IMG/VR virus record: IMGVR_UViG_3300042518_001057
Location: 1 to 40,463 of that record
Source of the DNA: a virus
Length of the DNA stretch: 40,463 bases
Strand: one strand, 5' to 3'
This document shows positions 9,520-38,096 of this stretch, in pieces (the first letter of the stretch is position 1; every line of letters begins with the position of its first letter). The notes under the pieces are model-generated. The model was not told where the DNA came from. It saw nothing but the letters and a program-made list of their open reading frames with translations, and did not search any database. Made by a program: the position numbers and the translations under genes.

Positions 9520-10401
9520 ATGATCCGCACAAACGAACCAGAAACGCTGGCCGACTACATAGCCGCGTATGCGCTGACGCATCCGCTCGAAAAAGAATCG
9601 TTGCGGCAATACGAAATCGCGGTGCGGCTGTTCGACCGCTGGGCTGGTCATCCCGTGCGCCTAGACGAAATCGACGCGCCGCTAGTCTCGCGTTGGATCG
9701 CGGACTATTCGCAGACGGTCGCGCCGCAGACGGCGCGGAGCAAGCGCCGCCAGATCGTGAGCCTATGGCGCTCCGCGGTCGATGATGGTTTGTGCGATCC
9801 CGTCGCGCTCATGCGCCGCGTGCGGCCCGTCCGCGTGCCGTGGAAAGCGCCGGTCGCCTGGACGCGCGAGGAAGTGCAGCGGCTGATAGCCGCATGCGCC
9901 ACGATGCCGCGATGGCACCGCTGCGGGCTGCGGCGGTCTGAATGGTGGGCGCTGGCGATTCGCGTTGCCTACGATTCGGGGCTGCGGTGGGAAGATCAAA
10001 TGTTCCGCCTGCGCGTCGATCAGATTACCGACGATGGTTTTATTGCGTGGCCGCAGCACAAAACGGGGCGCGTTGTGGTGTGCCAGTTGTCTGAACCAAC
10101 GTTGGCGGCGCTGCGGCTTTCGCTCCAGCGTTGCCCGCGCGAACTGGCTACCCCGTGGCAGGGCAGCCACGAAACGTTTTCCGATCAGGTGCGGACATTG
10201 GTTCGCCGCGCTGGAATCAGATCGGGAACGTGGAAATGGATTCGGCGCACGGGCGCGACCGATTGCGAAATTCAAGAGCCAGGATCGGCGGGGCGGCATC
10301 TTGGTCATGCGCCAGGATCGAAACTGGCATATATCGCCTATGTCGATCCGGCGCAGGTTGCCGCGGCCCGCGGGAAAACAGCCCCGCGCGCCCTCGCTTG
10401 A
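9520..10401 (+). CDS. int: Tyrosine-recombinase integrase
   Basis: This 293-residue protein has a core-binding N-domain (LADYIAAYALTHPLEKESLRQYE, then SRWIADY) and a C-terminal catalytic domain. Visible catalytic residues are Arg156 (SGLRWEDQ), Lys181 (HKTGR), Arg242 (WIRRTGAT), His263 (HLGHAPGS) and the probable nucleophile Tyr274 (AYVDP). The usual His three residues before the second Arg is a Lys (239), a variation to note. It should recombine the adjacent attP with a host tRNA-Arg(ACG) gene. The ATG at 9520 follows AGGAATAGGAACC; earlier starts are unlikely. Confidence 0.9.
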   Translation: MIRTNEPETLADYIAAYALTHPLEKESLRQYEIAVRLFDRWAGHPVRLDEIDAPLVSRWIADYSQTVAPQTARSKRRQIVSLWRSAVDDGLCDPVALMRRVRPVRVPWKAPVAWTREEVQRLIAACATMPRWHRCGLRRSEWWALAIRVAYDSGLRWEDQMFRLRVDQITDDGFIAWPQHKTGRVVVCQLSEPTLAALRLSLQRCPRELATPWQGSHETFSDQVRTLVRRAGIRSGTWKWIRRTGATDCEIQEPGSAGRHLGHAPGSKLAYIAYVDPAQVAAARGKTAPRALA

Positions 10402-10426
10402 CCGCGGGCAGCCGATCGGCAATAAT
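10398..10426 (+). promoter_or_regulatory. Promoter P6 with reversed operator core, drives excisionase-like gene
   Basis: TTGACC (10398-10403, overlapping the integrase stop) and AATAAT (10421-10426) are spaced by exactly 17 bases. The spacer holds the shared operator core in reverse orientation (10412-10424). The expected start point, about 7 nt after the -10, coincides with the ATG at 10433, so the mRNA would be leaderless. No Shine-Dalgarno is present, which agrees with this. Confidence 0.65.
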
Positions 10427-10432
10427 CCCGGC

Positions 10433-10663
10433 ATGGCAAAAATCGATCCGACTCTTTATGTGACGATCGGCAGCGCCGCGAGAATCGCGGACGTTGATCG
10501 ATTTTGGATGCGGCAACTCGTCAAGTCCGGCAAGATTTCCGGCGTGGAAATCGACGGGCAATGGTTTGCCCTGCGGTCTGCGGTCGAGAAATACCAGCGT
10601 TCCGACACGGGGCGCCCCAGGCTGCCGCGGGCGGCAAAATCCGCCGGCCCCAAAAAAGCCTAG
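10433..10663 (+). CDS. Small excisionase-like HTH protein
   Basis: This 76-residue protein follows the integrase by 31 nt. Its body reads as a MerR/excisionase-type winged HTH: LYVTIGSAARIADVDRFWMR, QLVKSGKISGVEIDGQWFAL, then RSAVEKYQ. A basic tail (RPRLPRAAKSAGPKKA) follows. Such proteins bend attachment-site DNA and set integrase direction toward excision. There is no ribosome site before the ATG, and promoter P6 appears to start transcription at the ATG itself. The gene is followed by an A/T-rich upstream element and promoter P1. Confidence 0.7.
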   Translation: MAKIDPTLYVTIGSAARIADVDRFWMRQLVKSGKISGVEIDGQWFALRSAVEKYQRSDTGRPRLPRAAKSAGPKKA

Positions 10664-10708
10664 GTTTCGCGGGGTTTTTCCAGGGAAAAGATTTTTTGGG
10701 TTAAGGGC

Positions 10709-10737
10709 TGGACAGGGTATTGCCGATCGGATATAGT
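10709..10737 (+). promoter_or_regulatory. Cassette promoter P1 with operator core
   Basis: TGGACA (10709-10714), a 17-base spacer and TATAGT (10732-10737). The spacer contains TATTGCCGATCGG (10718-10730). An A/T-rich stretch (10687-10703) upstream could act as an UP element, as at the other cassette promoters. Confidence 0.8.
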
Positions 10738-10747
10738 GTTGGCATGA

Positions 10748-10766
10748 CGCGGACGATTGAGCCGCG
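10748..10766 (+). promoter_or_regulatory. Cassette 1 leader stem-loop
   Basis: CGCGG (10748-10752) pairs with CCGCG (10762-10766) around the loop ACGATTGAG. It sits 25 nt before the start codon, at the equivalent position to the other cassette leaders. A GGA bridges stem and loop (10751-10753), 29 nt before the GGA of the ribosome site. Confidence 0.65.
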
Positions 10767-10791
10767 GCAAACTTCAAAAGGAACCCAAGTC

Positions 10792-11031
10792 ATGACGAAC
10801 TCCCAGTTTTCCGCTGCCGTCGAAATCGCCAAGGGCAACGCCGATCTGTCCCGCGTTGATACCGAAATCCTTTTCGGCTACGGGCTGCGGAACTTCGCCC
10901 CCGTCGCTGCCACCGTGGAAACCGTCGCCGCCGTGATTCGCTGGGATTGCTTGATGCTGAACGGCGAGTTTGATTCAGTGGCCCTCGACAACCTCCACAC
11001 CATCTTCCGCCGCAAGGTGACGGTGGTTTGA
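10792..11031 (+). CDS. Cassette 1 first gene, small acidic protein
   Basis: This 79-residue protein of unknown function starts at the ATG at 10792 after AAAAGGAACCC. An in-frame ATG at 10744 lies in the leader but has no ribosome site. The protein mixes helices (SAAVEIAKGNADLSRVDTEI) and a hydrophobic stretch (VAATVETVAAVIRW) and ends in RRKVTVV. It has the same opening (MTN) as the cassette 5 protein but I see no clear homology beyond that. It is controlled by P1 and is followed by a perfect 10-bp hairpin before the second gene. Confidence 0.7.
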   Translation: MTNSQFSAAVEIAKGNADLSRVDTEILFGYGLRNFAPVAATVETVAAVIRWDCLMLNGEFDSVALDNLHTIFRRKVTVV

Positions 11032-11044
11032 CCGGAAGCCCCAA

Positions 11045-11072
11045 GCCCCCGCGGCAACTTCGCCGCGGGGGC
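11045..11072 (+). terminator. Cassette 1 intercistronic GC hairpin
   Basis: GCCCCCGCGG (11045-11054) pairs perfectly with CCGCGGGGGC (11063-11072), loop CAACTTCG. It lacks a U-run, so it could be a partial terminator or an mRNA-stabilising element that sets the ratio of the two cassette proteins. Confidence 0.6.
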
Positions 11073-37465: not shown

Positions 37466-37499
37466 GCCCGCAGGATACGCGGCTAGGCCGCGCGGCCTG

Positions 37500-37510
37500 C
37501 GGGTCTGTGG
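37500..37510 (-). repeat. CCACAGACCCG intergenic element, copy 4
   Basis: Read leftward, CCACAGACCCG directly follows the TAG stop of the cassette 5 second gene (37511), two bases different from copies 1 and 2. Confidence 0.4.
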
Positions 37511-37732
37511 CTACTGCGGCACGCCCCATTTCTCGCCGCAAACCGTAGCCATATCGTCCAGCCGCTTAATCTTCCGCGATTCGATGGCATCGATAGCGGC
37601 CGGTTCCAGAACCCGCGCGGTCGCCAGCCCTTCGCGGTCGCGGATGTACCAACCGCCATTGCATCCGCGGCTCATGGTTTGCCCGCGCTTCAGCGCCTCA
37701 ATGACCGGCGCGCATTCCCGAATAAGTCTCAT
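37511..37732 (-). CDS. Cassette 5 second gene, small protein
   Basis: This 73-residue protein starts at 37732, preceded by AGGAACGATAGGAACGGTAG. It has a helical start (RLIRECAPVIEALKRGQ), a central GGWYIRDREGLATARVLEPA (strand-turn-strand) and a helical end. Function unknown. It occupies the same position as the second genes of cassettes 1-4, downstream of a GC hairpin. Confidence 0.65.
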   Translation of the reverse strand: MRLIRECAPVIEALKRGQTMSRGCNGGWYIRDREGLATARVLEPAAIDAIESRKIKRLDDMATVCGEKWGVPQ

Positions 37733-37761
37733 TGTCGCTTTCTACCGTTCCTATCGTTCCT

Positions 37762-37786
37762 CCCCGGCGGCACGGTGCCGCCGGGG
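37762..37786 (-). terminator. Cassette 5 intercistronic GC hairpin
   Basis: CCCCGGCGGC (37762-37771) pairs with GCCGCCGGGG (37777-37786) around ACGGT. It closely matches the cassette 4 hairpin and keeps the same placement between the two genes. Confidence 0.6.
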
Positions 37787-37799
37787 CTTGTGTCAACCC

Positions 37800-38012
37800 T
37801 CAAGCGGCGATTGCCGCGAGGAACTCCCAGGCCAGTTCCGTTTCCGGCTGCGAGCCACCGAGCGGGATGTATGTCGTTACGTTGCCATAGGCAACGTCAG
37901 CGGTCGCCCAATCCTGCCGCGCGAAGGCATCCAGAAACCGGCCCGCCTCCGCTGCGACCCAGTTCCGCGTTCCTTCAGTCAGGCGGGCAAACTTGTTCGT
38001 GAAGTTCGTCAT
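37800..38012 (-). CDS. Cassette 5 first gene, small protein
   Basis: This 70-residue protein starts at the ATG at 38012 after AGAAGGAACCGAAGCC. It is helical (NKFARLTEGTRNWVAAEAGR, FLDAFARQDWATADVAY) with a polar centre and ends in TELAWEFLAAIAA. Unknown function. Its own promoter P5 and leader stem-loop make it independently expressed inside the late operon, like a moron. Confidence 0.7.
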   Translation of the reverse strand: MTNFTNKFARLTEGTRNWVAAEAGRFLDAFARQDWATADVAYGNVTTYIPLGGSQPETELAWEFLAAIAA

Positions 38013-38038
38013 GGCTTCGGTTCCTTCTGGTTTCCTGC

Positions 38039-38059
38039 CGCGAGTCTCATTTGCTCGCG
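38039..38059 (-). promoter_or_regulatory. Cassette 5 leader stem-loop
   Basis: On the minus strand CGCGAG (38059-38054) pairs with CTCGCG (38044-38039), loop CAAATGAGA. Stem and loop are identical to cassette 2, 26 kb away. The start codon is 26 nt further. Confidence 0.75.
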
Positions 38060-38067
38060 ACTGCCCT

Positions 38068-38096
38068 ACTATATCCGATCGGCAATACAGATGCAA
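38068..38096 (-). promoter_or_regulatory. Cassette promoter P5 with operator core
   Basis: Read leftward, TTGCAT (38096-38091), a 17-base spacer and TATAGT (38073-38068). The spacer holds TATTGCCGATCGG (38087-38075). An A/T-rich stretch (AATAATTTTT) lies upstream, as for P1 and P2. Confidence 0.85.

Follow-up and report, generated by a model that had tools for sequence, protein, structure and literature searches.

What is the 13-nt sequence TATTGCCGATCGG that recurs inside the promoters of an uncultured phage, and which protein reads it? The question arises in IMG/VR record IMGVR_UViG_3300042518_001057, a stretch of 40,463 nt that is here called, in its whole length, the window, and in which the sequence is placed between the -35 and -10 hexamers of promoters named P1 to P6. 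Based on comparisons with related phages, we consider it probable that the sequence is part of an operator bound by an excisionase-like HTH_17 protein of 76 amino acids, which would regulate its own gene and most likely repress a set of dispersed early genes.

An operator core in dispersed promoters

The core TATTGCCGATCGG is present in five exact copies in the 40 kb of the window, counting both strands, while about 0.001 copies are expected by chance for a random 13-mer. The copies are located at 10412-10424 (-), 10718-10730 (+), 11542-11554 (+), 13213-13225 (+) and 38075-38087 (-), and a further copy in P3, at 12165-12177 (+), has two mismatches. A preliminary description of the window had given the coordinates of these six copies, which are all correct, and had claimed recognisable hexamers at a spacing of 16-17 bp in every promoter. 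The spacer counts confirm this, as all five exact cores, and also the P3 variant, are located inside the 16-17 bp spacers of sigma70-like promoters, with a length of 17 bp in P6, P1, P2, P3 and P5, and of 16 bp in P4. The same is true of the claim that the hexamers of P4 have shifted and the core has not: the -35 hexamer abuts the core and the -10 hexamer (TATAAT) is placed 2 bp further downstream, which means that the hexamers have moved 2-3 bp relative to the core. The core of P6 had been described as reversed, but this applies only to the better-matching half-site, which is flipped, while the promoter itself is read on the plus strand with its register unchanged (-10 = n-ATA-nT).

The preliminary description had also proposed a scan with up to three mismatches. 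Such a scan gave 36 matches in the window compared to 18.7 ± 4.3 in shuffled sequences, a number that was never equalled in 100 shuffles. With up to two mismatches, the only matches outside promoters were at 33927-33939 and 39392-39409, both in coding sequence (major head protein, terminase). The shuffles and the low expectation for exact matches rule out a chance origin of the repeated core. A restriction or methylation site was also considered and rejected, as CGATCG is found 66 times in the window and CCGATCGG only seven times.

Conservation of the operator and the promoter cassette

Relatives of the phage were identified in IMG/VR by searches with the major head protein and the integrase of the window, and others by two pattern scans. 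In the relatives reached through the two proteins, the element is likewise present at promoters, together with the hexamers, and in all the operator recurs in dozens of uncultured phages. Six operators were counted in the window, and at least five in G002 and four in G004. A search of related phages for the spacer motif had been suggested at the outset, and its result supports a selected operator and a dispersed regulon. The sequences strongly support a shared and selected operator that unites dispersed phage promoters in one regulon.

A fixed palindromic centre, as first described, was not borne out, since the central bases of the element vary among the relatives (GATA, GAAT, GGGC, GTCC, GACT and GAAA). 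The arms TATTGCC and GGMTATA are kept while these four bases change, and the conserved element is therefore best described as an imperfect 18-bp dyad with the consensus TATTGCCGANNGGMTATA, the right arm of which overlaps the -10 hexamer including its ATA. For the same reason, the strict CCGATCGG palindrome was rejected as the conserved unit. The exact 18-mer was found only five times in 84,980 genomes, in contexts that are not promoter-like.

About 28 distinct promoter cassettes were found. Because these were partly chosen by the search pattern, conservation was remeasured on sites that were reached solely via the neighbouring protein. When 29 P1 sites of this kind were aligned by eye with the core as the reference, columns 3-9 (TTGCCGA), 12 (G) and 16 (A) were found to contain 1.2-2.0 bits, and most positions downstream of the -10 hexamer less than 0.7 bits.

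The conserved unit is larger than the core and its hexamers and includes also an upstream A/T tract, a 5'-hairpin and a ribosome site, AAGGAACC. The full cassette has the order A/T tract, -35, operator, -10, 5'-hairpin with a covarying stem, AAGGAACC and small gene, and in the window and its close relatives AAGGAACC is placed just 5' of the start codon. The stem changes in sequence while the pairing is kept, with the variants CGCGAG/CTCGCG, CGCAAG/CTTGCG, CGCGGC/GCCGCG and CGCGGT/ACCGCG, as well as CGCGGA/TCCGCG, CGCGAA/TTCGCG, CGCGAC/GTCGCG and CGCGGG/CCCGCG. A stem of at least 5 bp is present in 67% of the leaders and in 9% of the shuffles, where some of the listed leaders represent one site in two registers. 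The unequal loop lengths caused MAFFT to misplace the 3' arms, and hence no formal pair count was derived from that alignment. The leaders did not match any family in Rfam. Members of a second phage group (L050, L104 and L109-L112) contain the same operator but a different leader that lacks the hairpin, which indicates that the operator and the leader are separable.

The DNA of the window had no match among phages, and its terminase and head protein matched isolates only at less than 60% identity. No match to the HTH_17 protein was found in phage or plasmid records, none to the integrase in plasmid records, and no relatives were found in a search with the protein encoded downstream of P2.

The HTH_17 protein and its relation to the operator

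The HTH_17 gene (10433..10663, plus strand) is the gene that adjoins the operator in both phage groups. A search with the HTH_17 protein only identified 52 loci, nearly all of which contain the operator in the next promoter, in the leaderless promoter of the protein itself, or in both. The next promoter has it at almost every locus, and the protein's own promoter has it, additionally or instead, at most of them. No operator was seen at either promoter in L116, L117 and L118-L120. In L050, L051, L054 and L064, whose own HTH_17 promoter lacks the operator, there is an additional half-site-like sequence, TCGGMAATAC, downstream of the HTH_17 gene and about 50 bp upstream of the -35 hexamer of P1.

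The AlphaFold model of the protein is a winged helix-turn-helix with the order helix-helix-wing-helix (pLDDT 76), in which residue 27, an arginine in the window, falls within the modelled recognition helix (residues 23-32). The nearest solved fold is that of Pukovnik Xis (prob 1.00, E 0.03, TM 0.54), and TraN, BldC and SoxR are also among the nearest, all of these with weak E-values. The match to the Pfam family HTH_17 (E 8e-4) is below the curated cut-off. After residue 57 the model has a low-confidence, unstructured tail, and the 76 amino acids contain neither the C-terminal dimerisation helix of MerR nor an effector domain. The protein may also act as an excisionase. An integrase adjoins the HTH_17 gene in the window, L035, L039, L067 and L092, while no match to a tyrosine integrase was found within 4 kb in L072, L083, L099 and L104. 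Around the attachment region, at 9050-9560, no close array of direct repeats was found.

The operator covaries with the recognition helix. Phages with Arg27 have a G at operator position 13 at 34 of 37 sites and a C at position 6 at all 37, while phages with Leu27 have G13 at none of 14 sites and C6 at eight of the 14, as tallied by hand from listed sites that are not mutually independent. Counted per distinct protein, G13 is present in 21 of 22 cases with Arg27 and in none of seven with Leu27 (Fisher 5e-6). According to the tree, arginine was replaced by leucine about twice and G13 was lost each time, including between the close sisters L083 (GATTGG) and L101 (GATTGC). HTH_17 proteins with divergent helices have shifted operators: L037 (SERHMR) has CCGCTATCGGCTAT at both promoters, and L190 and L192 (TRAYLNR) have TGTATCCGATTGGATACA.

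The attachment site provided a sample that is independent of the operator. The 3' half of a tRNA-Arg(ACG) gene is located at about 9350-9395, preceding the integrase, and is likely to be attP. The same 40 nt of the tRNA-Arg 3' end were found in 54 IMG/VR contigs, with a complete tRNA recognised in L200. The integrase is present in 51 of these contigs and a homolog of the XRE protein of the window in 26. The operator was found in six, by the pattern in L067, L160 and L182 and as variants identified by eye in L037, L190 and L192, and these six are the contigs that encode this HTH_17 subtype. No operator was found in the other 48, including 21 with an XRE homolog, in a sample in which many contigs are short and an unrecognised form of the operator would be missed. 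The same 21 of the 26 XRE-bearing contigs contain neither the operator nor the W-type HTH_17 protein. The presence of the operator only together with the HTH_17 subtype argues against recognition by the XRE protein and by a host factor.

Proposed repression by the HTH_17 protein and alternative explanations

The binder first suggested was the XRE (HTH_3) protein encoded at 8998..9267 on the minus strand, which as a CI-like lysogeny repressor would bind the operators and have the HTH_17 gene merely as one of its targets. XRE proteins are classical phage repressors that act on short dyads, and the gene is a neighbour of int, with conservation in L035/L036, L038, L039 and L067. However, phages whose operators are identical have XRE proteins with strongly dissimilar recognition helices, an XRE homolog is lacking from the fetched 4 kb at most operator loci, the operator is missing from the 21 XRE-bearing attachment-core contigs mentioned above, and the operator variants track residue 27 of the HTH_17 protein. 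The XRE protein is thus probably not the operator binder, and we regard this explanation as quite unlikely. A host factor, either a sigma factor preference or a host repressor, could also read the spacer element in phages that share one host lineage, in agreement with the finding of the same promoter element in phage groups with different leaders and with the conservation of the A/T tract and the hexamers. Yet attachment-core contigs, which probably come from related hosts, lack the element unless they encode the HTH_17 subtype, the 18-mer is as rare and as little promoter-like in the genomes searched as described above, and the operator variants are specific to phage lineages, all of which makes a host factor very unlikely.

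The promoters of the MerR family contain a dyad between the -35 and -10 hexamers, which are separated by a lengthened spacer of 19-20 bp. The dyad here has the same location, and the HTH_17 fold is related to the winged helices of SoxR and BmrR, which raises the possibility that the HTH_17 protein activates the promoters, in the manner of MerR or by DNA bending. XisF4 of Pf4 does activate phage genes (PMC7379572). The spacers of the window are, however, of the normal length of 16-17 bp, the hexamers are near the consensus and should need no help, and the protein has neither the MerR coiled coil nor an effector domain. Activation is thus rather unlikely, and steric repression is the simplest explanation of a dyad that covers the spacer and part of the -10 hexamer of near-consensus promoters with normal spacing.

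Under repression by the HTH_17 protein, transcription from the near-consensus promoters P1-P6 by the host polymerase would begin early in infection. The HTH_17 protein, made from the operator-bearing and leaderless P6, would accumulate and, after the initial burst, silence the promoter of its own gene along with those of the dispersed small genes. It would do so by binding, probably as a dimer, to the operator in the spacer and part of the -10 hexamer, thereby occluding RNA polymerase. As the operator is also located in its own promoter, the protein would be negatively autoregulated and the module would have a single input, with every regulated promoter feeding a portable leader that consists of the 5'-hairpin and AAGGAACC.

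Several observations weigh against this model. There are only about two independent replacements of arginine by leucine, and a test corrected for phylogeny cannot reach significance. The covariation also has exceptions: the Leu27 phage L101 retains GG in its own P6, and the Arg27 phages L106, L084 and L108 each have one site without G13. A strict rule of WMR = GG, broken by these four phages, was therefore rejected. Conservation is higher in the left half-site than in the right, an asymmetry that a simple symmetric dimer does not explain. In Group B phages (L104 and L109-L112), the HTH_17 gene itself has a promoter without the operator. The excisionases that have been studied recognise direct repeats spaced by one helical turn (PMC7498355), whereas the operators here are single imperfect dyads, and a dimerisation domain is not obvious in the protein. 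Furthermore, nearby HTH_17 proteins in L155, L164, L179 and L202 that resemble recombination directionality factors (RDFs) are not accompanied by the operator. These proteins have a different helix (SRQAMRKR), are encoded close to related integrases and are possibly pure excisionases.

Promoters, leaders and other features of the window

P6 (10398..10426, plus strand) is the promoter of the HTH_17 gene and consists of a -35 hexamer TTGACC at 10398-10403, an operator GGCAGCCGATCGGCAATA at 10407-10424 and a -10 hexamer AATAAT at 10421-10426. A distance of 6 nt separates the end of the -10 hexamer from the ATG at 10433, for which reason the mRNA is probably leaderless. Downstream of the gene, P1 (10709..10737, plus strand; -35 TGGACA 10709-10714, operator 10718-10735, -10 TATAGT 10732-10737) is predicted to drive 10792-11031 and possibly 11103-11450. 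Its leader hairpin at 10748..10766, CGCGG-ACGATTGAG-CCGCG, is followed by AAGGAACC at 10778. P2 (11533..11561, plus strand) has its -35 TGGACA at 11533-11538, operator at 11542-11559 and -10 TATACT at 11556-11561. It would drive 11617-11883 and has the hairpin CGCGAG-CAAATGAGA-CTCGCG at 11570..11590 and AAGGAACC at 11603.

P3 (12156..12184, plus strand), with -35 TTGACA at 12156-12161 and -10 TATACT at 12179-12184, contains the operator variant TATTGCCGGGCGGCTATA at 12165-12182 and is placed to drive 12237-12596 through a leader with the hairpin CGCGG-CAAGGAA-CCGCG (12193..12209) and AAGGAACC at 12225. In P4 (13207..13234, plus strand), the -35 TTGACC at 13207-13212 is followed by the operator at 13213-13230 and the -10 hexamer at 13229-13234. 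The promoter would drive the gene at 13292-13495, and the hairpin at 13245..13265, CGCAAG-CGAATGAGA-CTTGCG, has a compensated stem and precedes AAGGAACC at 13278. A G+C-rich stem-loop without a T-run is located 3' of the first gene in each of the P1-P4 operons, at about 11046-11071, 11893-11920, 12610-12637 and 13503-13528, and could be a terminator, a processing site or an mRNA stabiliser.

P5 (38068..38096) is located on the minus strand in the gap between the terminase and portal genes, with -35 TTGCAT at 38096-38091, operator at 38087-38070 and -10 TATAGT at 38073-38068, and would drive a small gene at 38012-37800. The hairpin at 38039..38059 is CGCGAG-CAAATGAGA-CTCGCG, followed by AAGGAACC (38026-38019). 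This slot (37800-38096 in the window, and in L008, L010, L012 and L066) contains differing small genes behind the same promoter, with two cassettes in L010, and by analogy resembles moron cassettes.

An identical sequence of 21 nt (TGTGTTTTGCGTAGGCTCGCG) is present at both ends of the window, at 1-21 and 40443-40463, and the contig is therefore probably a complete circular genome, although IMG/VR does not list it as such. A second 18-bp dyad, TATTTCCTAGTGGCAATA, is found at 253-270 and twice in the relative L008 (3983-4000 and 4171-4188), with conserved flanks and no obvious promoter hexamers.

Relation to known systems and significance

One regulator acts on many operators over the phage genome in the cases of C1 of phage P1, the stoperators of L5 and the CIRs of phiC31. 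The window is similar in that there are many operators in one phage genome, but differs in that those binders are immunity repressors, while the protein proposed here is of an excisionase-like winged-helix type. A CI/XRE regulon would be recognised by an XRE recognition helix that is conserved or covaries with the operator, and neither was seen here. Among excisionases, the closest parallels come from proteins that also regulate transcription. Apl of coliphage 186 is both an excisionase and a regulator of the lysis-lysogeny decision (PMC7498355), and as a small DNA-binding protein of the excisionase type it binds phage promoters and represses transcription. However, Apl binds tandem direct repeats that are 10-11 bp apart at att and pR-pL rather than single dyads in six dispersed promoter spacers. 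XisF4 of the Pf4 prophage likewise regulates phage genes and its own expression, but it acts at a divergent switch region, where it opposes a repressor and activates both the initiator gene and its own expression, and no promoter-wide spacer operator has been described for it (PMC7379572). RdfS of ICEMlSymR7A is an RDF with a winged helix-turn-helix. It binds to the promoter of its own gene and coordinates the expression of rdfS and intS, but has no consensus motif and relies on indirect readout, in contrast to the long and strict motif found here (PMC11963761). The Start-Associated Sequences (SAS) and ESAS of cluster K mycobacteriophages are repeated over the phage genome 5' of some of the genes, in part with inverted repeats, and are conserved at orthologous genes across the cluster (PMC3203893). 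The SAS is a 13-bp asymmetric repeat that adjoins the start codon, whereas the core described here is located further upstream, within the promoter spacer, with the hairpin and the near-start AAGGAACC as separate elements. Each ingredient thus has a precedent. We have not found this combination described in the open-licence literature, so a description that we have not seen may exist.

A broader proposal, for and against which we consider the case evenly balanced, is that one subfamily among the excisionase-like winged-helix proteins of uncultured phages became a phage-wide transcription regulator that reads the spacer dyad and co-evolves with it residue by base (27 with 13), even where no recognisable integrase is nearby. 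If true, a fold of the excisionase type would control a dispersed regulon through strict recognition of sequence, in contrast to the studied RDFs, which use cooperative repeats or have no clear motif. The phages would then offer a naturally occurring series of paired regulators and operators from which specificity could be worked out. They would also allow modules of co-regulated genes to be predicted in uncultured phages, and would supply promoters, operators and leaders as portable parts.

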